Shown in pieces: positions 37,240 to 53,436 of a stretch of DNA of 64,000 bases. Position numbers and translations under genes: made by a program. Within the stretch, counting starts at the first letter, position 1; every line of letters begins with the position of its first letter. The DNA is from Phyllobacterium phragmitis (lineage in GTDB: Bacteria > Pseudomonadota > Alphaproteobacteria > Rhizobiales > Rhizobiaceae). The notes beneath the pieces were generated by a model, which saw only the letters and a program-made list of their open reading frames with translations, was not told the origin of the DNA and did no database searches. The DNA is taken from assembly GCF_002980495.1 (NCBI RefSeq), contig NZ_PVBR01000005.1, positions 248,001 through 312,000 of the forward strand, read 5' to 3'.

Positions 37240-38091
37240 TTACGCCGACGATGCGAGCAGGCGTGCGAATCGTTCGCTGGCAGCCTCTGCGGCGACCCCG
37301 GCATAGACGATAAGACGCAGGTGCTTCTCCTCGTCGACGATGAATGTCGAGTGGTCGAACGCGACCGCTCCGATGCCATCGACAAGGAAGCTGCGACGTC
37401 CCTGGCAGCGGCCATGCACGTCGTGCCGGCGCCAGAGATCGCGAAACGCCGGCGAACGCTGCTCCAGCGCTTCAATCAGCCCAACCATGTCCTCGTCGTC
37501 GGGCGCCTGCGCGTAGTCGCGCCGGAAGCTCGCGAGAATCTGCGGCGCCTGGATGGCCCATTCCACGATCCGATTCGACAGGCTGTCATCGGCGAAGAGC
37601 ATCCACAGCATGTTCCGCTCCGCAGGATCGCGTGCCTCGAACCCGAACAGCCGCTCGGCGGCCGTGTTCCAGCCGATCACGTCCCAACGCAGGTTCATGA
37701 CATAAGCCGGCCGCAAAGCCAGATCGTCGATCAGGCGGCGAACCAGCGGCGGCAGCGCGCACCAGGGCCGGCCATTGATGGCGGGAGGACGGTGATGCGC
37801 CAGAAGGAAGAGATGCCGCCGTTCCGTCTCATCGAGTTTCAGCACGCGCGATACATTGTCGAGGAACGAGGCCGAGACGTTGATGTCGCGTCCCTGTTCC
37901 AGCCATGTGTACCAAGTGAGCCCCACGCCGGCGAGCGCCGCCACTTCTTCCCGCCGCAGCCCCGGCGTCCGGCGCCTTTTGCCCTGGGGAAGCCCGACAT
38001 CGAGCGGGGAGAGGCTTTCGCGGCGCCGACGCAGAAAATCCGCCAGCTCGGTGCGGGTGCGATCAAGCCGGTTTTCCAGCATGTTGCTCAT
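37240..38091 (-). CDS. XRE regulator of the MmyB type
   Basis: A 283-residue regulator with an N-terminal helix-turn-helix (about 10-85; RTPGLRREEVAALAGVGLTW) and a C-terminal MmyB-like PAS-related ligand domain (about 110-280), the layout of Streptomyces MmyB-like proteins thought to bind fatty acids. The ATG at 38091 lacks a clear ribosome site. It is divergent from an MFS exporter, with two identical 13-bp repeats between them. Probably a repressor of the exporter. Confidence 0.86.
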   Translation of the reverse strand: MSNMLENRLDRTRTELADFLRRRRESLSPLDVGLPQGKRRRTPGLRREEVAALAGVGLTWYTWLEQGRDINVSASFLDNVSRVLKLDETERRHLFLLAHHRPPAINGRPWCALPPLVRRLIDDLALRPAYVMNLRWDVIGWNTAAERLFGFEARDPAERNMLWMLFADDSLSNRIVEWAIQAPQILASFRRDYAQAPDDEDMVGLIEALEQRSPAFRDLWRRHDVHGRCQGRRSFLVDGIGAVAFDHSTFIVDEEKHLRLIVYAGVAAEAASERFARLLASSA

Positions 38092-38125
38092 AGTAACAGC
38101 ATAATTTCTTCTATAGTAACAGCAT
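38090..38125. promoter_or_regulatory. Direct-repeat operator between XRE regulator and MFS gene
   Basis: ATAGTAACAGCAT occurs at 38090-38102 and again at 38113-38125, 23 bp apart (about two helical turns). The first copy includes the regulator's start codon. This suits binding by the adjacent XRE protein to control both divergent genes. Confidence 0.6.
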
Positions 38126-38166
38126 CATATGCGGCTTATCCGATGGTTTCAACCACGGGAGCCGCC

Positions 38167-39642
38167 ATGTCCGACAGCTGCACTTCAACAATCAAAGCCT
38201 TGCCGTCTTCACCGTCTCGCGCGGGCGGCCATTCCGCCGTGTCGCCGCTTGCACTCGCCATCCTGCTGCTCGGCGGCTTCATCACCGTCTTCGACCTGTT
38301 CGTGGTCAATGTCGCGATCCCCTCCATGCAGGCCGATCTCGGCGCGGATTTCGCGCAGATCGGCTTCGTCATCGCAGGCTATGAACTGGCCTTCGGCGTG
38401 CTGCTGATCGCGGGTGGCCGCCTTGGCGATATCCATGGCCGCCGAAAGCTCTTCATCCTCGGCATGCTGGGTTTTGCCGTGACCTCGTTCCTGTGCGGCA
38501 TCGCGCCGACTGCCGCGAGCCTGATTGTCGCGCGTTTCCTGCAAGGGGCGACGGGCGCGATCCTGTTCCCGCAGGTCTATGCTTTGCTGCGGGTGATGTA
38601 TGACGAGGCCGGCCGCCGCCGCGCCTTTGGCCTGCTCGGCATGACATTGGGGCTTGCCGCCATCGCCGGCCAGGTGCTGGGCGGGCTGATCGTCGAGAGC
38701 GACCTGTTCGGTCTCGGCTGGCGCATCATCTTTCTCATCAACCTGCCGATCGGGGTGGTGGCGGCGGCGTTCGCCCGCGTCATCCCTGAATCGAAGGCGC
38801 CGGATGCCGCCAGTGTCGACTGGCCGGGTGTTTGTCTCGCCACGGCAGGGTTGTTGCTCCTGCTTCTGCCGTTGCTGGAAGGGCCGAACATCGGCTGGCC
38901 AGCGTGGACATGGGGCAGCCTCATTGCAGCGGTGCTATTGCTCACCGGCTTTCTCGCATGGGAACGCCGCGTCGGGCTGCGAGGCGGTCATCCGGCGATC
39001 GATCTGCGGCTTTTCGCCAATGCCGGTTTTTCGGCCGGAGCCATCGTCGTCCTGCTGATCTATTCGACCGCGACGTCGCTGTTCCTGTGTTTCGCACTGC
39101 TGGTCCAGTCGGGCTTCGGTCTGACGCCGTTCGAAGCGGGAAGCTTGTTCGCCCCGGCGAGCGTCGGTTTCGTCGCCGCGTCCCTGATCGGGCCGAGGCT
39201 GGTGGTGCGTTTCGGCGACAGCATTATCGCCGTCGGCGCTTTAGTCTACGCGGCCGGCATTCTATGGCTGATCGTGCGGGTCGGCGCGCTTGCGGGGCCG
39301 GGTGACGCATGGAGCCTGCTGCCGGCGCTCATTCTGTTCGGCTTCGGGCAGGGATTGTCTATGACGCCGCTGCTGAACCTCGTCATCGGATTCGTCGAGG
39401 AGCGCCATGCGGGCATGGCCGCAGGCATCGTCTCCACCATGCAGCAGGTCGGCGGCGCGTTCGGCGTCGCTGTCGTCGGCATCTTCTTCGTCCGTGTCCT
39501 TGCGGCACACCCGGCTGGCGCCGAGCCGAATGCAGACCGCTATGTCGCGGCATTCTCAGGCGCCATGCTCTACAACCTCTCGGCTGTCGTCATCGCCGCC
39601 GCGCTCATCCTGTGGATAGCAAGGCGCGCAAGGCCGACATGA
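38167..39642 (+). CDS. MFS drug exporter, DHA2 family (14 helices)
   Basis: A 491-residue transporter with about 14 membrane helices. Motif A-like GGRLGDIHGRRKLF follows helix 2, and motif C-like GPRLV and GQVLGGLI segments are present. DHA2 members export drugs, dyes or solvents with protons. The ATG at 38167 follows CGGGAG; an in-frame ATG at 38143 is an alternative. Gene pairs of an MmyB-type regulator with an MFS pump are common; induction by a hydrophobic compound is inferred. Confidence 0.87.
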   Translation: MSDSCTSTIKALPSSPSRAGGHSAVSPLALAILLLGGFITVFDLFVVNVAIPSMQADLGADFAQIGFVIAGYELAFGVLLIAGGRLGDIHGRRKLFILGMLGFAVTSFLCGIAPTAASLIVARFLQGATGAILFPQVYALLRVMYDEAGRRRAFGLLGMTLGLAAIAGQVLGGLIVESDLFGLGWRIIFLINLPIGVVAAAFARVIPESKAPDAASVDWPGVCLATAGLLLLLLPLLEGPNIGWPAWTWGSLIAAVLLLTGFLAWERRVGLRGGHPAIDLRLFANAGFSAGAIVVLLIYSTATSLFLCFALLVQSGFGLTPFEAGSLFAPASVGFVAASLIGPRLVVRFGDSIIAVGALVYAAGILWLIVRVGALAGPGDAWSLLPALILFGFGQGLSMTPLLNLVIGFVEERHAGMAAGIVSTMQQVGGAFGVAVVGIFFVRVLAAHPAGAEPNADRYVAAFSGAMLYNLSAVVIAAALILWIARRARPT

Positions 39643-40290: not shown

Positions 40291-40722
40291 TTAGCGCACG
40301 GGAATAAGCTTGGCGGAGGAAAGATGCCACTTCTCGGCGTCGGCCGGCGCGCCGACACCCGGCATGATACGATGCAGCCTATAATAACCGCGGAAATGCT
40401 GGCGCCGCCCGTTCTTGAGAGTGGCATGAACGTCAACCGGAACATCGACCCATTGCTGGCTCATGCCGGCATCGCCGTTGGTCGGAGAACCTGTGACCAC
40501 ACGTGATCGCGCTGTGGCGGTGAAGCCGTCGCGAAAGGCGGCGAAGCCCTTACCGCTCGCCTGGCCTTGCCGGTCCCACAGCAGATAGGCGGTGTGGTAA
40601 TCTCCCCTGTCAATCGCGGCGTAATAGGCTTCGACGACGCGTCGAGGATCTTCTTCAGCGGCGACCGCAGACGGCGCCTGTGCGGCGAATGCGGCGACGA
40701 ACAGGACAAGCAGCATTTTCAT
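40291..40722 (-). CDS. Secreted DUF4019-like protein
   Basis: A 143-residue protein with a signal peptide (MKMLLVLFVAAFAAQAPSAVAA) and an NTF2-like DUF4019 pattern: RVVEAYYAAIDRGDYHTAY near the start of the mature part and FRGYYRLHR later. A periplasmic role is inferred; the function is unknown. I chose the ATG at 40722 because GGGGAG is six bases before it; an ATG two codons upstream is too close to that site. Confidence 0.72.
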   Translation of the reverse strand: MKMLLVLFVAAFAAQAPSAVAAEEDPRRVVEAYYAAIDRGDYHTAYLLWDRQGQASGKGFAAFRDGFTATARSRVVTGSPTNGDAGMSQQWVDVPVDVHATLKNGRRQHFRGYYRLHRIMPGVGAPADAEKWHLSSAKLIPVR

Positions 40723-40896: not shown

Positions 40897-41760
40897 TCAG
40901 AACTTATAGCCGACGAAAAGGGAGACGGAGGGCTGCAGCTTTTCCTCCACGATCGGGCTATCGGCAGCATCTCCGGTCAATACGCCAAGGCCGGCTTCTC
41001 CGCGGACGAGCCAGTTTTCGGTCAGCAGATATGTTGCGGACGCTGAAACATCGACACGCTTGAGACCTGCCTTTGGCTTGTATTCGGGCAAGCCGGAGGC
41101 CGCAGACTGCGTGGCATCGACGCCGAAATAGGCCTCCATGTGCTTGTCATTCGCCACGATGGCCTCGGCGTTCGCACCGAGGATGAGCCGTTCGGTCACT
41201 GGCGTCGAATATCCTATGCCGAATGTTCCGATAAGGCTTTCGCTGCCCTCTATCGTTTGCTCGACTTCGGCATAAAGTTCGACGGGGCCCCACTCATATG
41301 CCGCCTTGGCGCCGACCGTGGCGGCGAAATCAATGTCGCCCAAGCCGCGAAGCCGGTCGGAATCGTCTTCATTTCTGCCTGTTTCGTAACCGACCTTTCC
41401 GGAAAGCGAAAACCCCTCGTGTCTGAGGGGCGTGACGGTGATCCCCGAAGGATCCAGTTCGAACCACTCGCCATAAGTGAAAAGAACGAAAGGGACAGGG
41501 CTGATCTCGAAGTCACCGCCGCCTTCATATTTCGGTTCGTACATTCCGCCGCCGCCGACGATCAGGCTCCAGTTCCGCTCGGGTTTCTCCTGATTGAACC
41601 GCTGATCGAATTGTTCTTGATCAAACGCTTGTTCCGATGCCTGCTCTGCAACAGTAGGGTCGGCGGCAGTTGCGCTGGATACCAGCCCCATGGCACCCAT
41701 CATTGCGGTGCCGAGGGCGTAGCACGAAGCGCGCCTGTTGTTTGGATTTGTGAAAAACAT
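40897..41760 (-). CDS. MipA/OmpV family outer-membrane protein
   Basis: A 287-residue protein with a signal peptide (cleaved near AATAA, residue about 33), a Gln/Glu-rich linker and an outer-membrane beta-barrel of the MipA/OmpV type (NWSLIVGGGGMYEPKYEGG, ending VSLFVGYKF with the C-terminal Phe). MipA scaffolds peptidoglycan synthases in E. coli, and relatives affect drug resistance. The AACAAA-type direct repeat at 41860-41877 suggests control by the response regulator at 44.1-44.8 kb. Confidence 0.9.
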   Translation of the reverse strand: MFFTNPNNRRASCYALGTAMMGAMGLVSSATAADPTVAEQASEQAFDQEQFDQRFNQEKPERNWSLIVGGGGMYEPKYEGGGDFEISPVPFVLFTYGEWFELDPSGITVTPLRHEGFSLSGKVGYETGRNEDDSDRLRGLGDIDFAATVGAKAAYEWGPVELYAEVEQTIEGSESLIGTFGIGYSTPVTERLILGANAEAIVANDKHMEAYFGVDATQSAASGLPEYKPKAGLKRVDVSASATYLLTENWLVRGEAGLGVLTGDAADSPIVEEKLQPSVSLFVGYKF

Positions 41761-41859
41761 GAGAGCTCCAAATCGAGTTATCGCCGCTGCCCAAGTCCGT
41801 CGAACAGCGAGACATTGACGGCACTAGATTTCACAGGGAAGCCGCCCCGGGCATGTCGT

Positions 41860-41877
41860 TATGTTAAGCTTTGTTAC
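41860..41877 (-). promoter_or_regulatory. Direct-repeat operator ahead of mipA (module motif, copy 1)
   Basis: In the direction of the gene the site reads GTAACAAAGCTTAACATA: two AACA(A/T)A half-sites ten bases apart. It lies about 100 bp ahead of the mipA start codon. See copies at 41921, 44048, 44881 and 49414. Confidence 0.65.
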
Positions 41878-41920
41878 GGCTGGAACGCACGGCGCGGTAC
41901 CGATCTCTCCGACGACCGTT

Positions 41921-41940
41921 GCAATGAAACTTAACAATCG
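41921..41940 (+). promoter_or_regulatory. Direct-repeat operator ahead of the sensor kinase (module motif, copy 2)
   Basis: In the direction of the kinase gene it reads GCAATGAAACTTAACAATCG. It shares GCAA, AA and CTTAACA with the other copies and lies about 84-103 bp ahead of the start at 42024. Confidence 0.55.
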
Positions 41941-42023
41941 CCTCGGGGCAGGCAGGTTCTCGTCATGTTATTAAGCCTCAAGCCCCAGTTCGTTCAACGA
42001 CACTGGCGCGCTGATGGAGGATT

Positions 42024-43343
42024 ATGAGATTGCGCATGTCTCTCGGTCCAAGGACCATACATGGACAGATCACCGCTATAATCGTGTTTGCACTGTTGAT
42101 CGTCGTCACGGCGGGGCCTGTGCTCGAGCGCTGGGTCAGAGATTACGAAGAATTGGACATCGAACAGGTCGCTGAACGTCTTCAAGCAATAGCGGAGATT
42201 TTAGCCGCGGCGACACCGGATAGGAGGGAAATTATCGTTGGTGCCGCTCACCGGTCGGGTTGGGATTTGACATTGCAGCCCCTGGTCCTGAGTGAGCAGT
42301 TCACGACGTCATCCAGTAAAGAGACATTCTGGGATCGGGCTCTTGACTGGCTGTTCCCGCCCGACAATTCGGTTCCCCCGCTGGGGGGGTGGAGGACGTT
42401 TCTGAACGACAACCGTGTCGTTGCTTTCAAGGTGGATGATGCAACGATGTTGGTCACTCCCATTTCTTCCGACTCCTTCCTGTGGGACAATTTCACCGTG
42501 CGGGGGTCATATTACCTGGTCGCGCTGATCACCCTGATCTTCCTGTTATCCGCGTTTGCCATTTGGGCAATCACGTTGCCTCTCAGGCGAATATCTCGCG
42601 CAGCTATCAACGCGGATATCTCGACCCATGCAGAGGTTTTTGAAGAACGCGGCAGCGTCGAGATCATCGCTCTGGCCAAGGCATTGAACGGCATGCGCAA
42701 TCGGATCGCGATCATGATGGAATCCCGGACCCGCATGCTGCGTGGCATCAGCCACGACTTGCGGACTCCGTTGACGCGGTTGAGACTAAGGGCTGAGCGT
42801 TTGCCCGAGGGGCCGACCCGGGACACGATGTTGTCCGACATCAATCATATCGACAGACTGCTGGGCGAGAGCCTTGGTTACTTGCGCGACAACCACAGCC
42901 AGGAGGCCGTCGAGCGCACAGATATCGCCAGCACCCTTCAGACGATCTGCAGCGAATTTGCCGATGTCGGTTTCGATGTGACCTATCGGGGCCCGAACAG
43001 ATTGATCACGAACTGCAAGCCTCTTGCGATCACCCGTGCCGTTACGAACCTTTGTGACAACGCCACGAAATTCGGCAGCTCGGTGATTGTCGAGTTGCGG
43101 GAAGATGCCGGCATGACCATCATCGATGTCATCGATGATGGTCCGGGGATTCCGGAACCGAACAGGGCGCGTGTGTTGGAGCCGTTTTTCAAGATCGATG
43201 ATGCCCGAGGCGGCGCCAATTCTGGCTTTGGGTTGGGGCTTTCGATCGTTGCCGAAATTGTACAGGCTCACGGAGGTAAACTGGAGTTCCTTGAGCGGCA
43301 GCCAAACGGTCTTGTCGTCAGAATGACGCTGCCCATGCATTAA
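42024..43343 (+). CDS. EnvZ-like membrane sensor histidine kinase
   Basis: A 439-residue kinase. Helix 1 (about 14-32), a periplasmic domain of about 125 residues, helix 2 (about 163-183), a HAMP region, HisKA with His244 in GISHDLRTPLTR, and HATPase with N box NLCDNATKFG and GFGLGLSIV. The EnvZ type normally senses envelope conditions. The ATG at 42024 follows GGAGGATT. Its partner is almost certainly the OmpR-type regulator at 44102-44824, transcribed towards it; the methyltransferase-like gene separates them. Confidence 0.92.
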   Translation: MRLRMSLGPRTIHGQITAIIVFALLIVVTAGPVLERWVRDYEELDIEQVAERLQAIAEILAAATPDRREIIVGAAHRSGWDLTLQPLVLSEQFTTSSSKETFWDRALDWLFPPDNSVPPLGGWRTFLNDNRVVAFKVDDATMLVTPISSDSFLWDNFTVRGSYYLVALITLIFLLSAFAIWAITLPLRRISRAAINADISTHAEVFEERGSVEIIALAKALNGMRNRIAIMMESRTRMLRGISHDLRTPLTRLRLRAERLPEGPTRDTMLSDINHIDRLLGESLGYLRDNHSQEAVERTDIASTLQTICSEFADVGFDVTYRGPNRLITNCKPLAITRAVTNLCDNATKFGSSVIVELREDAGMTIIDVIDDGPGIPEPNRARVLEPFFKIDDARGGANSGFGLGLSIVAEIVQAHGGKLEFLERQPNGLVVRMTLPMH

Positions 43344-43972
43344 TATAAGATCACTTGCGGCAGATCGGGGAGGGATTGCTTCCAATACATTAAAGCTCTG
43401 ACCAGAAGGGCGAGCAGGACGAAGATCATTCCGTCTGCGATCGTTCGCCGCAAAATGCGTGGGTCGACAGCCACTGAATCGATGTCACGCCACAAGGCCG
43501 GGCGAGGAAGGAAGCGAGGGACAGCACGGCGGTACGCATCGTAACTTTGTCCATGGGCGGATGAAAGCGCAGCCTCTTCCCGAAACACGACCGGCAAGAA
43601 GATCACGTATCCGAGCAATGCCATAAATATTGCTATGCTTATGCTGCCGGTTTGCGCTCCAAGTCCGGCAGCAGCGACAAATGAAAAGAAATAAAGAGGA
43701 TTTCGCGTGATCGAGTACGGGCCCGAATTTACGAGGACTACCGTTTTCCTTCCGCCTATATAGAGGGTGCACCAGGCCCTGCCGAGGATGGCGACGAACA
43801 ACAGGATAGAGCCTGCGCCTTCAACCAAATCACGCTGCCAGGATCCCAACTTGAAGGTGGCGGCCGTAAAGAGAATGACCGGTGCAAAGCAAAGGCTGAT
43901 ACACCATATCATGACCTTTCGGCGGGATTGCACCTGTGCAAGATAACTTTGAACTGCCTGAATGTCCGTCAC
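43340..43972 (-). CDS. Isoprenylcysteine methyltransferase-like membrane protein
   Basis: A 210-residue protein with about five membrane helices and the ICMT/PEMT signature: GPYSITRNPLYFFSF (about 84-98) and a downstream FREEAALSSAHGQSYDAYRRAVPRF-type segment that supplies the SAM site. Bacterial members methylate lipids or other small hydrophobic substrates; the target is unknown. It overlaps the convergent kinase stop by 4 bp. Its position inside the two-component module and a motif copy upstream point to coregulation. Confidence 0.82.
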   Translation of the reverse strand: MTDIQAVQSYLAQVQSRRKVMIWCISLCFAPVILFTAATFKLGSWQRDLVEGAGSILLFVAILGRAWCTLYIGGRKTVVLVNSGPYSITRNPLYFFSFVAAAGLGAQTGSISIAIFMALLGYVIFLPVVFREEAALSSAHGQSYDAYRRAVPRFLPRPALWRDIDSVAVDPRILRRTIADGMIFVLLALLVRALMYWKQSLPDLPQVILY

Positions 43973-44047
43973 TTTTGGCTCTCCGCATGACTTCTAGGCG
44001 ACCTTCGGCGCCAGCAGAGAGGGGAGTAGCGTGCCTCATACCGGCAC

Positions 44048-44065
44048 GACGTTTTGTTTTGTTGC
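44048..44065 (-). promoter_or_regulatory. Degenerate direct-repeat operator ahead of the methyltransferase (module motif, copy 3)
   Basis: In gene sense GCAACAAAACAAAAC matches the response-regulator copy at 12 of 15 positions, keeping the first AACAAA but not CTT. About 80-90 bp upstream of the start at 43972. It is the weakest of the five copies. Confidence 0.4.
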
Positions 44066-44101
44066 GATATGTAAATGCCAAGAGCCGCGCGCGATAAACA
44101 C

Positions 44102-44824
44102 TCACGCTTCCTCGACTGTCGCGGTGAACATATATCCACCGAGTCTCACCGTCCGCAGCAGAGCGGGCTCTTTGGGGTCGATCTCGATTTTTTGCCGAAG
44201 GCGGCTGACATGGACGTCGATACTGCGCTCGATCGGGCCAGCAAGTCCGGAGTGCGTCATCGAGAGGAGTTCCTCGCGGGTGATCACACGGCCCGGATTG
44301 CGGCAAAAAGCCAGCAGAAGGTCGAATTCCGTCGTTGTCAAAGCGATGCGGGCGTTGCTCGGGTCATGAAGTTGACGGCGCATCGGGTCGATTTGCCAAC
44401 CATCGAAGCGGAGCTTTCGTTGGGCGGTGTTTGTGACCAATCCATAGGAGGCCCGCCTTAAAAGGCTGCGCACGCGCGCGACGACCTCCCGGGGGCTGAA
44501 CGGCTTTGTGACGTAATCGTCAGCGCCGACTTCAAGCCCGACGATCCTGTCGATCTCCTCACCAAGCGCCGTCAACAAAATGATCGGAGTGGTCTTTTCG
44601 GAACGAATCTTCCTGCAGATGCTCAGCCCGTCCTCACCCGGCAGCATGACGTCAAGGATTATGAGGTCGAATGAATTGTTGCGCAGAAGCGATTGCATCA
44701 CACGACCATCTTCCGCGATGGTCGGGATCATCCCGTTATCCTGTATGGTGAGAGCGAGCAGATTTGCGATTTCCGAATCGTCCTCGACGATCAGGATATG
44801 CGCGTTTGCCGTATTTGATTGCAT
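44102..44824 (-). CDS. OmpR-family response regulator
   Basis: A 240-residue regulator. The receiver domain (about 8-120) has EDD (14-16), phospho-acceptor Asp58 in LILDVMLPG, LLTAL and TKPF. The winged-helix DNA-binding domain (about 140-238) includes the IERSIDVHVSRLRQKI recognition region. The ATG at 44824 follows GAGAGG. It likely binds the AACAAA-nCTT-AACA repeats in this module, including the one ahead of its own gene. The partner kinase lies at 42.0-43.3 kb. Confidence 0.93.
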   Translation of the reverse strand: MQSNTANAHILIVEDDSEIANLLALTIQDNGMIPTIAEDGRVMQSLLRNNSFDLIILDVMLPGEDGLSICRKIRSEKTTPIILLTALGEEIDRIVGLEVGADDYVTKPFSPREVVARVRSLLRRASYGLVTNTAQRKLRFDGWQIDPMRRQLHDPSNARIALTTTEFDLLLAFCRNPGRVITREELLSMTHSGLAGPIERSIDVHVSRLRQKIEIDPKEPALLRTVRLGGYMFTATVEEA

Positions 44825-44880
44825 GAAACCTCTCACCCCAATTCCTGCACAATGCACGCCGGAGAGAGCCAGTATATTTC

Positions 44881-44900
44881 GCTTTGTTAAGATTTGTTGC
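44881..44900 (-). promoter_or_regulatory. Direct-repeat operator ahead of the response regulator (module motif, copy 4)
   Basis: In gene sense it reads GCAACAAATCTTAACAAAGC: two perfect AACAAA half-sites ten bases apart, the clearest copy. About 57-76 bp ahead of the start at 44824, consistent with autoregulation. Confidence 0.7.
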
Positions 44901-45013
44901 AGCGTTGCAGAATACCACACTCCCCCAGGAATTGGGCGATTGTGAGTTTCGAGGATAAACGTTGTCTATCCGCCACTCGCCAGTGGTGGCGCCATGTGCG
45001 GCGTTCGGTGTGG

Positions 45014-48000
45014 CTAGCTCTCCGCCGACTGGAGGAAAGGCTTGAAGATCCGGGCGATCCGGTCGCCGAAGCCTGAAACGATGAGATGAAGGGACGGGAT
45101 CACGATCAGGGAAAGGAGCGTGGAGACCAAAAGTCCGCCAATGACGGCAATGGCCATGGGGGAGCGGAATTCGCCACCATCGCCCAAACCGAGTGCGGAA
45201 GGGACCATGCCGCCGGTCATGGCAAGCGTCGTCATGATGATCGGACGAACTCTTTCGGAACATGCCTCGATGACGGCATCGAGCCGCGAAAGCCCGTGCG
45301 CCTCCCGCTCGATCGCAAAATCCAGGAGCATGATGGCGTTCTTCGTGACAATGCCCATCAGCATCAGAATGCCGATGACCACCGGCAGCGATATGGCACT
45401 GCCACTTAGCCACAGACCCGCGGCGACACCGCCGATGGATAGGGGAAGAGACGCCAGGATCGTCCAAGGCGCCAGCACGCTGCCGAACAAGAGGATCAGG
45501 ACGACCAAGACAAGCATGATGCCCGATCCCATCGCCACCGCGAAGCTTTCGAAGACCTCACTTTCCGTATCGGAGTCTCCGGTTGCCTGGACACGAACGC
45601 CTTCCGGCAGGTTCCTGACGCTTTCCAGTCGAAGCAGCCGCTCCATCCCCTGTCCGGACGTCAAGCCGTCGGCCATGTCCACGCCAATCTCGATCCGGCG
45701 TTCGCGATCAAACCGCTCTATGGCGGACATCGTCTCGTCAAAGCTGATGTCGACGACCGCCGACAATGGGACATGGGTTCCATCGTCGGAAGGGACGGTC
45801 AGCATTTCCAGCGTCGGAAGATCATCGCGGGCGTTGCGATCGATGACCACGCGGACAGGGATTTGCCGGGCGCCATCGGTGAAGCTGGGCAAGCGGCTGT
45901 CGACATCGCCGATAGTGGACACACGGATCATCTGGGCGATCATGGCCGGCGATACGCCGAGCATCGAGGCCTTGTCCGTCTGCACCTGCATCCTCAACTC
46001 TGGACGCATGGCGGTATTGTCGATGCCGGGGGCGACAAACGCCCGATCGGCTGAAAGCTCCTCCACAATGGCGTTCGCGGCGTCCAGAACCACCTGCCCA
46101 TCGGTGCCCAGGACGGCAAAGGAAAGATCGCGGCCACCGCGTGTGTTGAGGAATCTTAGTTTCACATCGGGGATGGACGAGAGATTTTTCTCGATATCGG
46201 CTTCAATCGCAAATGACGAACGATCCCGGCGCGACTTGTGAAGGAGGTCGATGAGGACGACTGCATAGCGCACGTCCTCCAGCCCCGCGGTGCTTGAACC
46301 GGCGCGCGTGAACACGCCCTCCACTTCCTGGAACGCGCCGACACGGTCCGCGATTTCATCGGAAACTGCGCGCGTATCCTCAAGGGTGGAACCGGGCGGC
46401 AGCTCAACGGAGAGGGTCAACCGTCCGGTGTCCTCCTCCGGCAGAAAGCCGGTCGGTAACGACATCAGGGCGAGCAGTGCCAGAGCGAAGGAACCGCCGG
46501 CAAGCCCAACGGTCACCCATCGCCAGCGCAGGCTCAGCCGCAACAGCCGCTCGTAAGCCAGGATAAAGCGCCCCTTCTTCTCCTCGGCCGGCGGGCTTCC
46601 GGTCATGAAATAGGCGGCCATGACAGGCGTTATGAGCCGTGCCACCAGCAGGGAGAAGAAGACGGCAATGGCGACCGTCAAGCCGAATTCGCGAAAGTAC
46701 AGGCCGACCTCGCCGCTCATGAAGCCGACCGGCACGAACACGGCGATGATGGTGGCCGAGATGGCGATAACGGCCAGGCCAATTTCGTCGGAGGCGTCGA
46801 GCGCCGCCCGATAGGCATTCTTGCCCATGTCACGGTGGCGAACGACATTTTCGATTTCGACGATCGCATCGTCGATGAGTATTCCGGTGACCAGCGTGAT
46901 GGCCAGCAAGCTCAGGATGTTGAGAGAAAACCCCATGAGATCGATGGCGAAAAAGGTCGGGATTATCGACAGTGGAAGCGCGACCGCGGCGACGATCGTC
47001 GCCCGCCAGTCCCGCAGGAACAGGAAAACGATGATGACGGAAAGCGCGGCTCCCTCGAGCAACGTGCTCATGGCCGAACTGTAATTGCCGGCCGTGTAGG
47101 TGAAATTGTCATCCACGAGGCTGAACCGCACATCCGTATTGCGCGCGCCCATCTGCGTCAGTGCCTCGGAAACCGCATTCGCAACGGAAATTTCGCTCGC
47201 GCCCTGAGAGGGATAGACCGCAAACCCCACGACGTCCGCGCCGCCGAGCGTCGCGAAGGAACGCGCTTCCGCCACAGTATCTTGAACGCTGCCCAAATCC
47301 CCCAGCCGGACGGCCGCATGGGGAGAAAGCGCAATGCTCTGATCGGCAAGGTCCGACACGGTCTTTGCCGCCGCCACGGTGGTGAGGGCTTGCTCACGAC
47401 CGCTGAGGTCGCTCCTCCCGCCGGAATTCTCAATCTGGGTTCGCAAGAGGCTTTCGTTGACGGCATTCGCGGACAGCGAAAGCGCCTGCAACCGGTCGGG
47501 ATCGAGCTCGACATGAATCTCCCGATCCGCTCCGCCGACGCGTTCGATCCGTCCCACTCCCGGCAAACCCTGCAGATTGCGGATAACCTCGTCCTCCACG
47601 TACCAGGAGAGTTCGGAAACCGTCATGTTCGTACTGCCGACGGCGTAGGTTACGACAGACTGGGCTTCCTGTTCGATCCGTTCAACGATCGGCTCGTCGA
47701 TCGTGGCGGGCAGGTCGGAACGGATTTTCGTGACGGCATCACGCACGTCGACCATCGCCCGATCCGGCGATACCACGCCCAATTCGAACTCGACACTGGT
47801 GACGGATCGGCCCTGACCGATGGTCGACGTGATTTTTTCTATGCCGGTCAGCGGCGCGACGGCATCCTCCACCCGCCGCGTCACCTCGGTCTCAAGCTCG
47901 GTCGGCGTCGCTCCGGGTTGTTCGATCGTGACATTGACGAGCGGGGTGACGATTGTCGGGAAGTAGGTGATGGGCAACCGAGAGAAGCTGTAGAGACCCG

Positions 48001-48076
48001 CCACTGTCAGAATCACAAAGAGCAGGACCGACGGCAGAGGATTGCGGATTGCCCACGCCGAAATGTTCGCGTTCAT
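45014..48076 (-). CDS. RND efflux pump inner-membrane transporter
   Basis: A 1020-residue HAE1-type RND protein: an N-terminal helix (LPSVLLFVILTVAGLYSF), a large periplasmic porter domain, helices 2-6 with the proton-relay GILIDDAIVEIENVVRH (two Asp), a second porter domain and helices 8-12. It exports drugs, dyes or envelope compounds. It begins within the adaptor stop (4-bp overlap). No outer-membrane channel gene follows. Slightly shorter than AcrB, as usual for this clade. Confidence 0.93.
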   Translation of the reverse strand: MNANISAWAIRNPLPSVLLFVILTVAGLYSFSRLPITYFPTIVTPLVNVTIEQPGATPTELETEVTRRVEDAVAPLTGIEKITSTIGQGRSVTSVEFELGVVSPDRAMVDVRDAVTKIRSDLPATIDEPIVERIEQEAQSVVTYAVGSTNMTVSELSWYVEDEVIRNLQGLPGVGRIERVGGADREIHVELDPDRLQALSLSANAVNESLLRTQIENSGGRSDLSGREQALTTVAAAKTVSDLADQSIALSPHAAVRLGDLGSVQDTVAEARSFATLGGADVVGFAVYPSQGASEISVANAVSEALTQMGARNTDVRFSLVDDNFTYTAGNYSSAMSTLLEGAALSVIIVFLFLRDWRATIVAAVALPLSIIPTFFAIDLMGFSLNILSLLAITLVTGILIDDAIVEIENVVRHRDMGKNAYRAALDASDEIGLAVIAISATIIAVFVPVGFMSGEVGLYFREFGLTVAIAVFFSLLVARLITPVMAAYFMTGSPPAEEKKGRFILAYERLLRLSLRWRWVTVGLAGGSFALALLALMSLPTGFLPEEDTGRLTLSVELPPGSTLEDTRAVSDEIADRVGAFQEVEGVFTRAGSSTAGLEDVRYAVVLIDLLHKSRRDRSSFAIEADIEKNLSSIPDVKLRFLNTRGGRDLSFAVLGTDGQVVLDAANAIVEELSADRAFVAPGIDNTAMRPELRMQVQTDKASMLGVSPAMIAQMIRVSTIGDVDSRLPSFTDGARQIPVRVVIDRNARDDLPTLEMLTVPSDDGTHVPLSAVVDISFDETMSAIERFDRERRIEIGVDMADGLTSGQGMERLLRLESVRNLPEGVRVQATGDSDTESEVFESFAVAMGSGIMLVLVVLILLFGSVLAPWTILASLPLSIGGVAAGLWLSGSAISLPVVIGILMLMGIVTKNAIMLLDFAIEREAHGLSRLDAVIEACSERVRPIIMTTLAMTGGMVPSALGLGDGGEFRSPMAIAVIGGLLVSTLLSLIVIPSLHLIVSGFGDRIARIFKPFLQSAES

Positions 48077-49323
48077 CGACGAACCGTCCCTTCTGCGTGG
48101 TTGAGTGAGACGGCTCGAGGCCCCTCTCGTCGCGGGGCACCTTCCGCCGATACGATGACAGGCTCAACGCGGTCCTGATCCTTCAGGAAGGCTCCCGCCT
48201 TCAGGACCACCATTTCGCCGTCCTCGACACCCTCGACGATCTCAACGAGACCATCCTGACGCGCGCCGATCCTGACGTTTCGAAATTCCACAATTTCGTT
48301 TTTGACGACATAGACGCTATGAGAACCGCGCGTGCTTTTGACAGCCGTTCCCGGCAGGAGAACATTCGTCCGCGTCGATGTATCAATGACGCCGCGTGCA
48401 AATACACCGGGAACGAGGGCGTCACTCTCATCGAGTCTGAAGCGAACCGTTCCGCTCCGCGTTTTTGGGTCCAGTTGGGCCGCATTGAGCCGCAGCGTAC
48501 CGGTGACTGGTTGGTCACGGCCAGGAACGGTCACCTCCGCACGCATGCCTTCACGCAGTTGCACGAAGTGCGTTTCCGTTACTTCCGCAACGAACTCAAT
48601 CTCACCGTCCTTCGCGATGCGAAAAAGAGGATCGCTCGAACCCGACGTCATGACACCGATGCGGGCGCTTCGCTCCAGAATGAAACCAGACGCAGGGGCG
48701 CGCAACGTGCTCCTCTCGACCGTCAACTCGATCTCTTTTCTTTCCTGCGCAATCAACTGTTCTTCGGCTTGCGCCAATGCCAATGACTGGCGCGCAAGTG
48801 CCGTTTCCGCGACGGCACGGTCATATGCGTTTTGGTGTTCATCCAAAAGCTGAACAGAAACGACCCCTTTGGGCTGGAGCGCCCTGCTACGTTCCAGCTT
48901 CTTCCGGGCTTCGCGCTCGGTGATAAGCGCAATGTCGACCCTGCTGTTCTCGACGGCCGCAGCCGCCTTGGCGCGAAGAGCACTCACTGCATTTTTGTCA
49001 AGGGCGAGAAGTGCATCGGACTTGTCAAATGAAGCCAGGGGCTGACCTTGTTCGACGCTTTGACCGGCTTCTACCAGGATGCTCTGTATTTCCCGGTCTG
49101 TGACCGAGGGATGGACCTGGACCTCCTCGCGCGCGGCAAGCGTTCCCACAACCGATATGCGCTGCGTGATGTCGCTCTGCTTCGCAACAATAACTGTGAC
49201 GGGCATTTGCTGCTGGGCCTGCGCAATCGGCACAAAAGCAGCGAGAGCAAGCGAGGCGATGATCCCGCATCGGATAGACGGCTGCGGCGGGCAGAACGGT
49301 TTGAGCCACGCATTTATGCTCAT
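48073..49323 (-). CDS. RND periplasmic adaptor
   Basis: A 416-residue adaptor with a signal peptide (residues 1-36, SLALAAFVPIAQAQ), lipoyl halves, a coiled-coil hairpin (about 110-190) and beta-barrel domains (TVRFRLDES, PGVFARGVI). It links the RND pump to an outer-membrane channel. The ATG at 49323 is preceded by AGAGAGG. First gene of the adaptor-pump operon; a module-motif copy lies about 90-110 bp upstream. Confidence 0.91.
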   Translation of the reverse strand: MSINAWLKPFCPPQPSIRCGIIASLALAAFVPIAQAQQQMPVTVIVAKQSDITQRISVVGTLAAREEVQVHPSVTDREIQSILVEAGQSVEQGQPLASFDKSDALLALDKNAVSALRAKAAAAVENSRVDIALITEREARKKLERSRALQPKGVVSVQLLDEHQNAYDRAVAETALARQSLALAQAEEQLIAQERKEIELTVERSTLRAPASGFILERSARIGVMTSGSSDPLFRIAKDGEIEFVAEVTETHFVQLREGMRAEVTVPGRDQPVTGTLRLNAAQLDPKTRSGTVRFRLDESDALVPGVFARGVIDTSTRTNVLLPGTAVKSTRGSHSVYVVKNEIVEFRNVRIGARQDGLVEIVEGVEDGEMVVLKAGAFLKDQDRVEPVIVSAEGAPRREGPRAVSLNHAEGTVRR

Positions 49324-49413
49324 GAAACGACCTCTCTTCTGCTGCCTCGAGGCATGACGAGCCCTCGGCAAGTTCGGCCGCACCCTAACGATCAGGGAAG
49401 ATCGCAGTGTTGT

Positions 49414-49433
49414 ATCGCATTAAGATTTGTTGC
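49414..49433 (-). promoter_or_regulatory. Direct-repeat operator ahead of the RND operon (module motif, copy 5)
   Basis: In gene sense it reads GCAACAAATCTTAATGCGAT; the first 14 bases are identical to the response-regulator copy. About 91-110 bp ahead of the adaptor start at 49323. Confidence 0.65.
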
Positions 49434-49607: not shown

Positions 49608-50303
49608 TTAGCTCTGATTCGCGTCGAGGAGGGCGCGCGCGAAGCCTTTTTCGGCCATTTCGATCGTCCCGTCGGGCAGTTTGAGCACGCGGTCGATGGC
49701 AAGGCCGTAGAGCCGCAACCGCTCGTCCAGCATCTGCGCCGCCTCGTCTACATTGCCGTCCTTGGCCTGTTGCATTGCCTTGTGCATCACCGGGCCGAGG
49801 CTCAGGCGGAACTGCAGCAGCATTTCGGCAAAGGCCAGCGGATCGGGTGCATCGAGAATGCCTTCCTCGGCACCCTCAGCCAAGATTCCGCTCAGAATGG
49901 GCGTGACGACAGCCGACACGGCCCGGTCGATCCGGTGGAAGAGAACGACGTTCTCGGGGCGGAAAACCACATCGAACGTGTTGCGGATATGCGGTGCCAT
50001 CTCGACCTTCATGCGGCGTGCCCCGCCAAAGAGCGCGTTGAGGCGGCCGATGGCGTCGAGCTCGGGATTGTCCAGGAGGGGTTGGAGCTCCCTCACGCTG
50101 TCGCGCGCCATGCGGGCGGCGAGCGCTTCCAGAAGCGCCTCTTTGGAAGCGAAATAATGATAGAATGCGCCCTTCGATATCCCCGCCTCACCGATGATGT
50201 CGTTGATGGTCGTGTTGTCATAGCCACGGCTGAAGAACAGCCGCTGGGCGCAGTCCAGAAGCTCGGTCAGTCGCACCTCCGGCGTCTTGATGACACGAAT
50301 CAC
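49608..50303 (-). CDS. TetR-family repressor
   Basis: A 231-residue regulator with the N-terminal helix-turn-helix (about 14-58; YDNTTINDIIGEAGISKGAF) and a helical ligand domain. It is divergent from the ABC exporter genes with a perfect palindrome between them, so it most likely represses itself and the exporter, released by a transported compound. Confidence 0.9.
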   Translation of the reverse strand: MIRVIKTPEVRLTELLDCAQRLFFSRGYDNTTINDIIGEAGISKGAFYHYFASKEALLEALAARMARDSVRELQPLLDNPELDAIGRLNALFGGARRMKVEMAPHIRNTFDVVFRPENVVLFHRIDRAVSAVVTPILSGILAEGAEEGILDAPDPLAFAEMLLQFRLSLGPVMHKAMQQAKDGNVDEAAQMLDERLRLYGLAIDRVLKLPDGTIEMAEKGFARALLDANQS

Positions 50304-50401
50304 GGGGCAGGTTCCTCAAAAGGTCGTCTCTGCATCTTTATCAGTCCGGACATCAGGCGGAAGCGCATATTTGCCGCACCACGATATTCGGATTTTCCAT
50401 T

Positions 50402-50422
50402 ATAGACCGACCGTCGGTCTAT
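50402..50422. promoter_or_regulatory. TetR operator
   Basis: ATAGACCGAC and GTCGGTCTAT are perfect 10-bp inverted arms around one C (50412). It lies between tetR (start 50303) and the adaptor gene (start 50474), where it can control both. Confidence 0.8.
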
Positions 50423-50473
50423 TGCTATAGTCCGGCACTCGCGGTCCTGCTTTTGATTGCCGGAGAGATTTGA

Positions 50474-51514
50474 ATGCCGATGTTCCGGATATTGACTGCC
50501 ATTGCCATTGTTCTGGCGCCCGCCGCCTTCGGCTTCTGGTATATGCAGCGCCCGATACCTGTCACGACGGTCACGCCGAAGCGGGGAGATGCAGCCGAGA
50601 TCGTCTATGCGAGCGGCGTGGTCGAGCCGCGCATTTGGGCAAAAGTGACGGCGCTCGTCCGCGAGCGCATCATCGGACAATGCGATTGCGAGGGCGAGGA
50701 GGTCGAAAAGGGCGCCGTGCTCGCCCGGCTCGATGCCAGCGAGGCGGAAGCGGCGCTGAGCGAACTTGAAGCGCGCCTGCGCCTGTCGCGGGAGGAGCAT
50801 CGGCGTCTTTCCGTGCTTGCCAGACGCAATGCTGCCAGCCAGCAATCGCTTGACCGGGCAATCAGCGAAGTCGCCCAGCTCGAGGCGCTGGTGGCCGGGC
50901 AGAAGGCAAGACTGGAAAGCTATGTCCTGCGCGCGCCGGTTAGAGGCGTCGTGCTGCGCCGGGATGCGGAGGTCGGCGAGATCGCGGAACCGGGCACCGT
51001 GCTGTTCTGGGTCGGGCAGCCGAAACCGCTTCTCGTCATCGCGGATGTCAATGAGGAGGATATTCCGCATGTGGCGGTCGGCCAACGGGCGTTGCTGCGT
51101 TCCGACGCATTTCCGAAGCGTAATCTGGAAGCTGTCGTCGACAGCATCACGCCGAAGGGCGATCCTGTCACCAAGACCTACAGGGTCCGCTTCAGGCTGC
51201 CGAATGACACGCCGCTGATGATCGGCATGTCGACCGACGTCAATATCGTCATCCGCGTCTCCGAAAACGCCTTGCTCGTGCCATCGCTCGCGCTACGCGG
51301 CGACGAGGTCTATATCGTTGAAAACGGCAAGGCTGTGCGACGGAATCTCGATATCGGCATTCGCGGCCTGCAGGAGGTCGAAGTGCTGTCGGGCGTGACC
51401 GCGGATACCCGCATCATTTCTCCATTCCCGGAGGATCTGAGCGATGGTGCACGCGTGACATTGGGCGACACTGGGGCCAATTCTGGGGTCAACGCCACGC
51501 TGGCGGAGGAGTGA
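50474..51514 (+). CDS. ABC exporter periplasmic adaptor (DevB/MacA-like)
   Basis: A 346-residue membrane-fusion protein with an N-terminal anchor helix (about 5-24), lipoyl halves (EEVEKGAVLARLDASEAEA), a coiled-coil (about 95-150) and a barrel domain. It works with the permease and ATPase that follow within 6 bp and by overlap. An exporter of lipid, peptide or drug is implied; the substrate is unknown. Confidence 0.88.
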   Translation: MPMFRILTAIAIVLAPAAFGFWYMQRPIPVTTVTPKRGDAAEIVYASGVVEPRIWAKVTALVRERIIGQCDCEGEEVEKGAVLARLDASEAEAALSELEARLRLSREEHRRLSVLARRNAASQQSLDRAISEVAQLEALVAGQKARLESYVLRAPVRGVVLRRDAEVGEIAEPGTVLFWVGQPKPLLVIADVNEEDIPHVAVGQRALLRSDAFPKRNLEAVVDSITPKGDPVTKTYRVRFRLPNDTPLMIGMSTDVNIVIRVSENALLVPSLALRGDEVYIVENGKAVRRNLDIGIRGLQEVEVLSGVTADTRIISPFPEDLSDGARVTLGDTGANSGVNATLAEE

Positions 51515-51520
51515 GAAGAG

Positions 51521-52762
51521 ATGCGCCTCATCCTCGAGATCGCCTTCACCCACATTGCCGGACGTGGGCGCCAGACCCTGGTGGCGATCGTGGGTGTTGC
51601 GGTTGGCGTTGGCTTCTCGGTCGCCATGGCAGCGCTGATGCAGGGCGGACAGGATGATTTTGTCGAGCAGCTGATCAATACCATGCCGCATGTGCAGATC
51701 ACCGACGAGCGGCGCACGCCGCCGCGCCAGCCGGCGGAAGAGGTCTTCGGGGCCGCTGCCATTTCCGGTCTCCGGCCGCGGGAAGACCGGCGCGGGATCA
51801 TCAATCCGACGGCGGCGCTTACCTGGCTCAGGGGCTGGGTGCCGGGCCAGGTGGCAGAAAATCTGAAGGCTCAGGGCGTCATCCGCTATGCCGGGCGTGA
51901 CGTCGGCGCCTCGATCATCGGCGTCGATCCGGATGCCGAAAGGGGCGTGTCGCCGATCGTCGAAGATTTCGTCCAGGGCAGCTTCGACAGGCTGAGAGCT
52001 GGTGGCAACAACATATTGATCGGCGACACCATGGCCTCGCGTCTCGGCGCCGGGCTTGGCGATACGATCACGGCGGTGTCCTCCACCGGCCTGTCGCGCA
52101 ATTTCAAGATCGCCGGCCTTTTCCATACCGGCACCACGGCGCGCGACGAGGGCGAGGCTTATGTGCTTTTGAAGAATGCACAGATCCTGAGCGAGAGGGC
52201 GAATGCGATCAACGAGATCAGGATCAAGCTTGCCGATCCCAATGCGGCGCCTGCGGTGGCGAAACGGACCGAGGCCGAACTCGGCTACAAGGCCATGGCA
52301 TGGCAGGAGGCGAACGAATCCATCCTGGAAGCGCTCGTGGTGCGCAATGTCATCATGTATACGGTGGTCGCCGCGATCATGCTCGTCGCCGGTTTCGGCA
52401 TTTTCAACATCATCTCCACCATCACCCATGAAAAGGCCCGCGACATCGCCATCATGAAATCGCTCGGCTTTGCGGAAGCGGACATGCGGCGGCTGTTCCT
52501 GATCGAGGGCGTTGCCATCGGCGCGGCGGGATCGCTGTTCGGTTGGTTGCTCGGCTTCTCGCTCGTCTATGCGCTGGCGCAGGTGCGTTTTGAACTCGCC
52601 ACCACCGGACAGGAAATGACGCGGCTGCCGATCGCCTGGAGCTTTCTGCATTATCTCCTGGCAGCGGGCTTCGCGCTCGCATCGGCTGCCGTTGCCGGCT
52701 ATCTTCCAGCCCGCCGGGCGGCGAAGCTCAATCCCGTCGATATCATCCGGGGCGCGACATGA
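51521..52762 (+). CDS. ABC exporter permease, FtsX/LolC-like
   Basis: A 413-residue permease: one N-terminal helix (LVAIVGVAVGVGFSVAMAAL), a large periplasmic MacB-PCD domain (about 45-270) and three C-terminal helices of the FtsX domain (about 285-410, with IISTITHEKARDIAIMKSLGF). It overlaps the ATPase start by 4 bp. Separate permease and ATPase place it with DevC/LolE systems rather than fused MacB. Confidence 0.88.
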   Translation: MRLILEIAFTHIAGRGRQTLVAIVGVAVGVGFSVAMAALMQGGQDDFVEQLINTMPHVQITDERRTPPRQPAEEVFGAAAISGLRPREDRRGIINPTAALTWLRGWVPGQVAENLKAQGVIRYAGRDVGASIIGVDPDAERGVSPIVEDFVQGSFDRLRAGGNNILIGDTMASRLGAGLGDTITAVSSTGLSRNFKIAGLFHTGTTARDEGEAYVLLKNAQILSERANAINEIRIKLADPNAAPAVAKRTEAELGYKAMAWQEANESILEALVVRNVIMYTVVAAIMLVAGFGIFNIISTITHEKARDIAIMKSLGFAEADMRRLFLIEGVAIGAAGSLFGWLLGFSLVYALAQVRFELATTGQEMTRLPIAWSFLHYLLAAGFALASAAVAGYLPARRAAKLNPVDIIRGAT

Positions 52763-53436
52763 GCACGCTGATCGAAGCTGTTAATCTCACGCGGGTCCTG
52801 CCGGCGATCGTCCCGGTCACGCTGATCAAGGATGTTTCGCTGTCGGTCGGCGAGAAGGAATTCGTCGCTGTCACCGGCCCCTCCGGCTCGGGGAAATCGT
52901 CGCTTCTCTATCTGCTCGGCCTTCTCGATCGACCGACGAGCGGCACGTTGAAAATAGGTGGACGCGACAGCGGGCCGATGGACGAGCAGGAGCGGGCAAG
53001 GACGCGCCTTGCCATGATGGGCTTCGTCTTTCAGTTCCATTTTCTGCTACCGGAGTTCACGGTGCGCGAGAATGTCGAGATCCCGATGCGCAAGCTGGGC
53101 CAGCTGTCACGGCCGCAAATGCGGGAAAGGGCGACGGAGTTGCTGGAATCGCTCGGGCTAGCCGGTCATCTCGACAAGCGGCCGGATCAGCTTTCCGGCG
53201 GTCAGCGCCAGCGTGTCGCCGTCGCCCGCTCGCTTGCCAACGATCCGCCGATCGTCCTGGCGGACGAACCGACGGGCAGTCTCGACACCAAAAGCTCGGA
53301 ACAGGTCTTCCACATCCTCGAAACGCTGGTGCGCGAACGCAACAAGACCGTCATCGCCGTCACCCATGATGTCGAAATGGCCGCACGCATGGACCGCCGC
53401 ATCCATCTGGTCGACGGCGGGATAGAAGAACCGTAA
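52759..53436 (+). CDS. ABC exporter ATPase, LolD/DevA-like
   Basis: A 225-residue ATPase: Walker A GPSGSGKSS (about 41-49), Q-loop FQFHFLL, signature LSGGQRQRVAVA, Walker B IVLADEPTGSLD. It powers the permease encoded just before. The stop is 5 bp from that of a small gene on the other strand. Confidence 0.93.
   Translation: MSTLIEAVNLTRVLPAIVPVTLIKDVSLSVGEKEFVAVTGPSGSGKSSLLYLLGLLDRPTSGTLKIGGRDSGPMDEQERARTRLAMMGFVFQFHFLLPEFTVRENVEIPMRKLGQLSRPQMRERATELLESLGLAGHLDKRPDQLSGGQRQRVAVARSLANDPPIVLADEPTGSLDTKSSEQVFHILETLVRERNKTVIAVTHDVEMAARMDRRIHLVDGGIEEP

Follow-up and report, generated by a model that had tools for sequence, protein, structure and literature searches.

Although MipA/OmpV proteins are widespread, little is known of their role. 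In Pseudomonas aeruginosa, MipA is reported to bind polymyxins, loss of mipBA lowers the induction of MexXY-OprA, and the response regulator ParR binds the mipB promoter, with the two-component system ParRS activating both mipBA and mexXY (PMC10936184). The same report finds that most of the screened mipA loci have a two-component system as a neighbour, and it describes a mipA-mipB pair only in Pseudomonas. Here we analyze a 64,000-nucleotide stretch of the Phyllobacterium phragmitis genome (the window) that holds a module of genes for a MipA/OmpV protein, an EnvZ-like kinase, an OmpR-like response regulator, a membrane methyltransferase, and an efflux pump of the resistance-nodulation-division (RND) type. 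A direct-repeat element, here called the box, precedes each of the five transcription units. Probably, this box is the site through which the OmpR-like regulator drives mipA, the kinase, its own gene, the methyltransferase, and the RND pump, with outer-membrane perturbation as the likely signal.

The module is similar to the MipA-MipB/ParR-ParS/MexXY-OprA system in that a MipA barrel gene adjoins a two-component pair, for which co-sensing at the outer membrane has been proposed (PMC10936184). In Pseudomonas, one regulator acts on both mipA and an RND pump; here, mipA lies beside the regulator/kinase pair and the RND operon carries the same box, from which a common control would follow. However, the RND genes of the module lie in the same cluster, its box is a triple AACA repeat, and the box is also present at the methyltransferase gene and, in a small number of relatives, at PAP2 and glycosyltransferase genes. 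No gene like that of MipB, a lipoprotein with a beta-lactamase fold, was seen in the module or among the scanned window proteins, and none by that name in six annotated plasmid loci, no dedicated search having been made. By analogy, the comparison suggests that the module may be an outer-membrane-damage response like that of ParRS-MipA-MexXY. The original prediction, which had been made from the sequence of the window alone, did not recognize the combination as a described system. We found no description of an alphaproteobacterial MipA/two-component/RND regulon in the open-licence literature searched, although one may still have been published elsewhere, but the P. aeruginosa system is a close analogue (PMC10936184) and a relative of the methyltransferase is annotated as NccN (nickel resistance).

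Other described systems share parts of this plan. The Rhodobacter CenKR and OmpR/EnvZ-type systems are reported to combine a REC plus winged-helix regulator and a HisKA kinase with 10-bp direct repeats and envelope targets (PMC9275681), but the half-site given for CenR is TGA whereas that of the module is AACA, and the module sites are concentrated in one cluster. Burkholderia thailandensis BesRS is described as a two-component regulon for envelope disturbance with a MipA/OmpV-family gene and an efflux transporter, but it has further targets (beta-lactamase, hopanoid, and catabolic genes), macrolide-type efflux, and several operons (PMC9426598). In Rhizobium etli, where nodTc is also involved, RetPC57/58 is an OmpR-type pair beside a divergent RND operon that needs the regulator for its expression; that pair, however, is described as CpxR-like, and MipA and a methyltransferase go unmentioned in the main text of the report (PMC7769827). 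The module is a case of MipA-linked OmpR/EnvZ-type control, a variant rather than a wholly new type of system. In Rhizobium leguminosarum, the MipA-family gene RL0955 has been reported to be specifically required for lentil root colonisation (PMC11103875).

The genes and boxes of the module are given below by window position; the 16-mer core of the box is GNAACANNNCTTAACA or variants of it, read towards each gene.

40897..41760, minus strand: mipA, MipA/OmpV outer-membrane barrel family, 287 residues, isoelectric point 4.4 (Pfam PF06629, E 4.7e-47)
42024..43343, plus strand: EnvZ-like sensor histidine kinase, 439 residues, HisKA and HATPase_c, H-box His244
43340..43972, minus strand: PEMT/ICMT-superfamily membrane methyltransferase, 210 residues, RNPLY at 90 and REE at 131
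44102..44824, minus strand: OmpR-like response regulator, 240 residues, Response_reg and Trans_reg_C, Asp58 and Lys107, recognition helix GPIERSIDVHVSRLRQKIE
45014..48076, minus strand: RND permease, HAE1-like, 1020 residues, PF00873, motif GILIDDAIVEIEN
48073..49323, minus strand: RND periplasmic adaptor, 416 residues, overlapping the permease gene (TIGR01730, 152 bits, above the cut-off of 94.9)
41852..41877, minus strand: mipA box (16-mer core 41862-41877), three repeats, GTAACAAAGC TTAACATAAC GACATG
41921..41936, plus strand: kinase box, two repeats, GCAATGAAAC TTAACA
44050..44065, minus strand: methyltransferase box, GCAACAAAAC AAAACG (variant second repeat)
44875..44900, minus strand: regulator box (16-mer core 44885-44900), three repeats, GCAACAAATC TTAACAAAGC GAAATA
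49408..49433, minus strand: RND operon box (16-mer core 49418-49433), three repeats, GCAACAAATC TTAATGCGAT ACAACA

The kinase gene sits between mipA and the methyltransferase gene and is the only module gene on the plus strand. The kinase and regulator show the domain set of an OmpR/EnvZ-type two-component system (Response_reg with Trans_reg_C, HisKA with HATPase_c, and Asp58, Lys107, and His244), but they score below the curated cut-offs. The regulator reaches 215.8 bits against the NCBIfam OmpR equivalog cut-off of 331 and the kinase 185.4 bits against 415 for EnvZ; OmpR and EnvZ are still the top-scoring profiles, and orthology to these two proteins themselves is not reached at the equivalog level. 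A pair of Asp residues (DD) is a mark of HAE1 pumps, and the permease has both the ACR_tran domain and the paired Asp of the GxxxDDA motif; its top-scoring solved chain is MdtB, and the cut-offs of the curated RND subfamily profiles are left unreached (647 of 1250 bits). Domain profiles run on the neighbouring proteins turned up no gene for an outer-membrane channel. The methyltransferase scores above the Pfam cut-off for PEMT (PF04191, 32.7 bits against 25) and just below that for ICMT (PF04140, 23.3 bits against 24), and no solved chain matched it by sequence up to E 1. An assignment as the lipid A phosphate methyltransferase LmtA was rejected at 26 bits against an NCBIfam cut-off of 325.

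All five boxes point towards their genes in the same relative orientation, as the original prediction had held, and they make up all five matches in the window to the 14-mer search pattern GCAACAAANCTTAA at up to two mismatches. The spacing of 60 to 105 bp that it gave fits the distances from the motif end to the start codon (mipA, 101 bp; kinase, 87; methyltransferase, 77; regulator, 60; RND operon, 94) but not those from the motif start (117, 103, 93, 76, and 110 bp, respectively). Likewise, the two hexamers it placed ten bases apart do keep a 10-bp period, but they are followed after another 10 bp by a third and weaker repeat. Across 68 sites, AACA is seen first at offset 2 and again at offset 12, with the third peaking exactly at +22 (12 sites); elsewhere between +16 and +44, no single offset has it more than once. 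The unit of the box is a triple direct repeat with a 10-bp period and one helical turn between units, although the kinase and methyltransferase boxes are without a clear third repeat. These promoters thus carry the tandem repeats at 10-bp spacing of an OmpR/EnvZ-type system, and 10-bp direct repeats have been described for OmpR-family regulators (PMC9275681, PMC7380067). The methyltransferase box had been called degenerate but is instead a conserved variant, GCAACAAAAC-(G/A)AA(A/G)CG, kept in all four close loci that have the gene; the boxes of two distant methyltransferase loci (L047 and L051) score just 9 and 10 of 15.

Comparison with relatives showed that the box is kept at orthologous promoters even where gene order has changed. 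Across the window and eight close relatives (L031, L032, L033, L040, L041, L042, L044, and L045), in which gene order and strand vary, the box matches at 11 to 15 of 15 positions in every promoter present (mipA, 9/9; kinase, 9/9; regulator, 9/9; adaptor, 8/8; methyltransferase, 4/4), and the kinase box does so at 12 to 15 positions in all eight relatives. The next-best place in the same promoter stretches reaches 7 to 12 positions, with one tie at 12 (the L040 regulator). Within each promoter class of these nine close loci the 16-mer is 81-94% identical, whereas the 53 bases upstream (-60 to -8) are 25-36% identical, which is near random. Downstream, +30 to +42 is 28-41% identical in four promoter classes and 75% identical among the four methyltransferase promoters. 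Among more distant loci, the mipA box matches at 13 of 15 positions in L051, L052, and L053, at 11 in L049, and at 8 to 9 in L047 and L048.

The box is also concentrated at the promoters of this gene set. Thirty-one loci were scanned, 22 with a MipA match and nine without. At up to one mismatch, GNAACANNNCTTAACA occurs at 43 sites in the 22 MipA-bearing loci (401 kb) compared to a permuted-pattern mean of 0.49 (maximum 4 in 300 trials), with the caveat that part of this set shaped the pattern. On the strand of the gene and 20 to 330 bp upstream of it, with start codons extrapolated from tblastn matches, lie 42 of the 43 (mipA, 17; regulator, 12; kinase, 6; adaptor, 4; glycosyltransferase, 3); two of the three glycosyltransferase sites are a single L047 site counted in two registers, and the remaining one, in L053, lies at a distance of 284 bp. 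The sole exception (L031:15522, one mismatch), in Mesorhizobium sp. RMAD-H1, is 93 bp upstream of a gene for chorismate mutase instead of a module-type gene. The box-bearing glycosyltransferase of L047 is 91% identical to a GT2-GtrA-PMT_2 protein of L038, a locus of the source genome; that of L044 has the box only as the 14-mer at two mismatches, 75 bp away, and the L053 case is weak. Among the nine related loci without mipA, sites at up to one mismatch were found in L043, L046, L054, and L056, preceding PAP2 phosphatase genes in L043 and L046, and none were found in L050, L055, L057, L058, or L059.

Loci scanned after the pattern was set gave the same picture. All seven additional loci from the order (L067-L073) have a site at up to one mismatch before mipA, and three have one before the regulator. 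Ten plasmid loci (H26, H29-H33, H35, H37, H39, and H40) were taken from the 15 listed (H26-H40) of 47 records matching the kinase; they hold 19 sites compared to 0.37 expected, 16 of them before module genes. Two of the three other plasmid sites are about 80 bp before annotated genes, one for a glycosyltransferase (L075), in which no Pfam domain was found, and one for a hypothetical protein (L074). In four loci from other orders, three have a one-mismatch box on the mipA strand just beyond the mipA match, and the fourth has a two-mismatch site before the regulator. The plasmid pDG3-1e encodes a PAP2 protein with a passenger-associated (PATR) repeat, adjoining mipA (L074:17879-19819). The RND permease gene of Rhizobium sp. 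CC-CFT758 may be broken, since its match is split in two and only a short coding sequence is listed (L078:4089-7165).

In the family as a whole, GCAACAAANCTTAACA at up to one mismatch has 41 matches in 199 genomes, and its reversed control has 35 by our own count. Six genomes with a close module (G000, which is the source genome, and G050, G103, G125, G140, and G142) hold 15 of the 41, 12 of these in module promoters, with the other 26 spread over the remaining 193 genomes; 2 of the 35 control matches fall in the same six. We also built a sequence-only profile from 34 orthologous sites of relatives, none from the window, and searched the 5.6-Mb source genome with it (a first pass scored 150 of 299 candidates). 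Only four hits had E<=10. The mipA box was the top match genome-wide, the mipA, regulator, and RND sites together took ranks 1 to 3, and the fourth hit was a site on contig C8 (C-numbers denote contigs of the source genome); the kinase and methyltransferase boxes were not recovered in this search.

The regulators themselves were aligned (31 sequences, leaving out L050, where the match is a fragment), and the stretch (E/D)RS(I/V)D(V/A)H(I/V)(S/R)R(L/I/V)RQK(I/M)E was present in 29 of 31. The outliers are L059 (47% identical, DRSIDTRISRLRRKIE, at a locus without a box) and L056, in which His replaces the first Glu and the box is present. The prediction of an OmpR-type box shared by an autoregulated module finds good support in this comparison: the box is conserved against near-random upstream flanks, in reordered loci, on plasmids, and in other orders, together with a near-constant helix. 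The box before all five units, however, is a trait of the close group.

Binding, activation, the signal, the sensing role of MipA, and the substrate of the methyltransferase are put forward here as a model. The EnvZ-like kinase (42024-43343) would phosphorylate the OmpR-like regulator (44102-44824), which would then bind head-to-tail to tandem 10-bp half-sites, G-n-AACA-nnnC / TTAACA-nnnn / nAnACA, that start 76-117 bp ahead of the initiation codons of the five units (mipA, kinase, methyltransferase, regulator, and RND operon). The regulator is expected to activate all five units, probably as a class II activator with the last half-site overlapping the -35 region. There is a weak second conserved patch at +42 to +53 from the motif start, and a -10 element would sit there if the third repeat overlaps -35. 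The likely job is a response to outer-membrane perturbation, for example by cationic peptides, in which MipA may be both target and co-sensor; the RND pump and enzymes that modify the membrane would form the output, and the sensor pair would be subject to positive feedback. PAP2 phosphatase, glycosyltransferase, and PEMT/ICMT methyltransferase genes together point to membrane or lipopolysaccharide (LPS) modification as that output.

Several observations weigh against this model. The -10 assignment leans on the weak conservation peak just described. Eight more distant loci have the kinase gene without a box (7 to 9 of 15 positions), and helix and box are not strictly linked, as L048, L055, L057, and L058 have the helix and no site at up to one mismatch. 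An exact box outside the module (C8:124491, L036:5992) lies 99 bp before an HbpS-like gene for which no homologue was found at E<=1e-25 in 40 other genomes. In a model of the kinase sensor domain (residues 33-162, taken as periplasmic; predicted local distance difference test score, 70), Foldseek ranks 1 to 9 are RisS and ParS chains at weak E values of 0.05 to 0.48, but a sequence profile of the domain found neither ParS nor RisS; the ParS-like fold is thus a weak resemblance, and so is the match on which orthology of the pair to ParRS would have to rest. The last such point is a paralogous regulator/kinase pair on contig C9 (C9:129112-134638, L038:1110-6708), with a regulator 59% identical, a kinase 38% identical (residues 11-437), and a recognition helix (VERSIDVHISRVRQKIE) nearly the same as that of the module regulator (IERSIDVHVSRLRQKIE). 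As a separate observation, the exact box on C8 and a one-mismatch box at C8:100097 (L037:6098) have near-identical surroundings, and the latter precedes an open reading frame that shares nearly the same first residues as the HbpS-like gene and continues into what we read as a PAS-type sensor-kinase-like protein. The regulon might reach as far as these C8 genes.

The paralogue gives rise to the first alternative, that the box is the site of a whole regulator subfamily and that the C9 paralogue binds the five promoters too or instead, in a cross-wired network. Beside the paralogue lies a gene for an 868-residue GT2-GtrA-PMT_2 glycosyltransferase (a fusion we take to be ArnT-like, although Pfam names PMT_2 only) with a two-mismatch box 103 bp upstream, and a one-mismatch box lies about 0.6 kb beyond the paralogue kinase. 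Cross-binding is likely because the paralogue helix fits the common pattern, and the glycosyltransferase box may belong to the same network as the module. Consequently, the claim that the regulon is self-contained is not established. Boxes at the paralogue-type loci L054 and L056 also favor a subfamily-wide site, but three others of that type, L055, L057, and L058, lack any box at up to one mismatch in 19 kb, and in 21 of the 22 MipA loci and all ten plasmid loci the box lies within a cluster that holds a regulator of the module's type. We therefore regard this alternative as rather doubtful and continue to favor control of the five units by the module's own regulator.

A second alternative, which we consider improbable, concerns the signal: the module might answer metals or plant phenolics and not cationic agents that act on membranes, with the methyltransferase as a CzcN/NccN-like part of an efflux cluster. 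CzcN is an ICMT-like protein, and the gene for the module methyltransferase has a relative on a Cupriavidus plasmid that is annotated as nccN. In Cupriavidus, CzcRS, a two-component system beside an RND operon, is reported to control czcN (PMC10127602). The Cupriavidus genes, however, belong to metal efflux, the identity to nccN is just 34%, the permease of the module is HAE1-like by its motif and its MdtB match, and the extra box-bearing genes of relatives are of PAP2 and glycosyltransferase types.

It is less probable still that the regulator represses some genes, such as mipA or the kinase, rather than activating all five. OmpR-family regulators can activate and repress, as CenR is reported to do (PMC9275681), and the kinase and methyltransferase boxes stand apart in their third repeat. 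Nevertheless, all five boxes have a similar distance and the same orientation, the weak conserved patch 42 to 53 bp from the motif start would fit the -10 element of a class II activator, and ParRS is reported to activate both mipBA and mexXY (PMC10936184). Activation of all five units by the OmpR-like regulator thus remains our preferred reading.

Loose counts of the motif are a poor guide. At up to three mismatches, GCAACAAANCTTAA has 11 matches in the window compared to 6.4 expected, a count that alone is unremarkable because 7 of 100 shuffles reach 11. In the 5.6-Mb genome it has 35 matches at up to two mismatches (five in the module), six at up to one (three in the module), and three exact (two in the module); since the reversed-pattern control gives 59 at two mismatches, the loose motif alone proves little. 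That the repeats are chance A-rich or low-complexity sequence, or a common promoter element such as a -35-like CTTAAC, is in keeping with such loose counts but extremely unlikely and was rejected, as the permuted-pattern, window-blind profile, footprint, and plasmid tests all disfavor it and a second mipA of the source genome (C16:24321-25001, L096) has no site at up to two mismatches in 10 kb. This second mipA, which lies between what we read as ileS-like and ribF-like open reading frames, also led us to reject the idea that MipA is generally accompanied by the box.

The kinase is 72-77% identical in Mesorhizobium, Chelatococcus, and Paramesorhizobium, 54-62% identical on the ten plasmids taken (Agrobacterium, Allorhizobium, Neorhizobium, Rhizobium, Sinorhizobium, and Martelella), and 48-51% identical in other orders of the class. 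Among 397 genomes of the order, 9 have it at E<=1e-85, as do 5 among 385 genomes of the class, the source genome being included in both, and so patchy a distribution would fit mobility. More tentatively, and with somewhat less than even confidence, we propose a class-wide alphaproteobacterial regulon for outer-membrane damage, often plasmid-borne and built on one triple 10-bp repeat, in which MipA would be the co-sensor, the kinase and regulator the relay, and the RND pump and exchangeable LPS- or lipid-modifying enzymes (PEMT/ICMT methyltransferase, PAP2 phosphatase, GT2-GtrA-ArnT-like fusion) the output. Such a regulon could have evolved around MipA as a counterpart in function to PmrAB/ParRS, perhaps under exposure to antimicrobial peptides from plants or soil. 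With the conserved box as a sequence marker, the whole regulon can be sought in other alphaproteobacteria, the idea that a histidine kinase has MipA as its sensor partner can be tested outside Pseudomonas, and the response can be examined as a single unit.

Three neighbouring regions of the window are of minor note. Downstream of mipA, positions 40291-40722 encode a small protein that seems to carry a signal peptide and matched nothing in Pfam or NCBIfam at E 0.001; it has an 80% identical counterpart, likewise beside mipA, in L033. Adjoining the module on the other side (49608-53436), a TetR regulator gene is divergent from an HlyD / MacB-FtsX / ABC export operon, and this region has no box at up to two mismatches. 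Finally, positions 37240-39642 hold two divergent genes, one for an MFS transporter and the other for a helix-turn-helix regulator that has an MmyB-like ligand domain.

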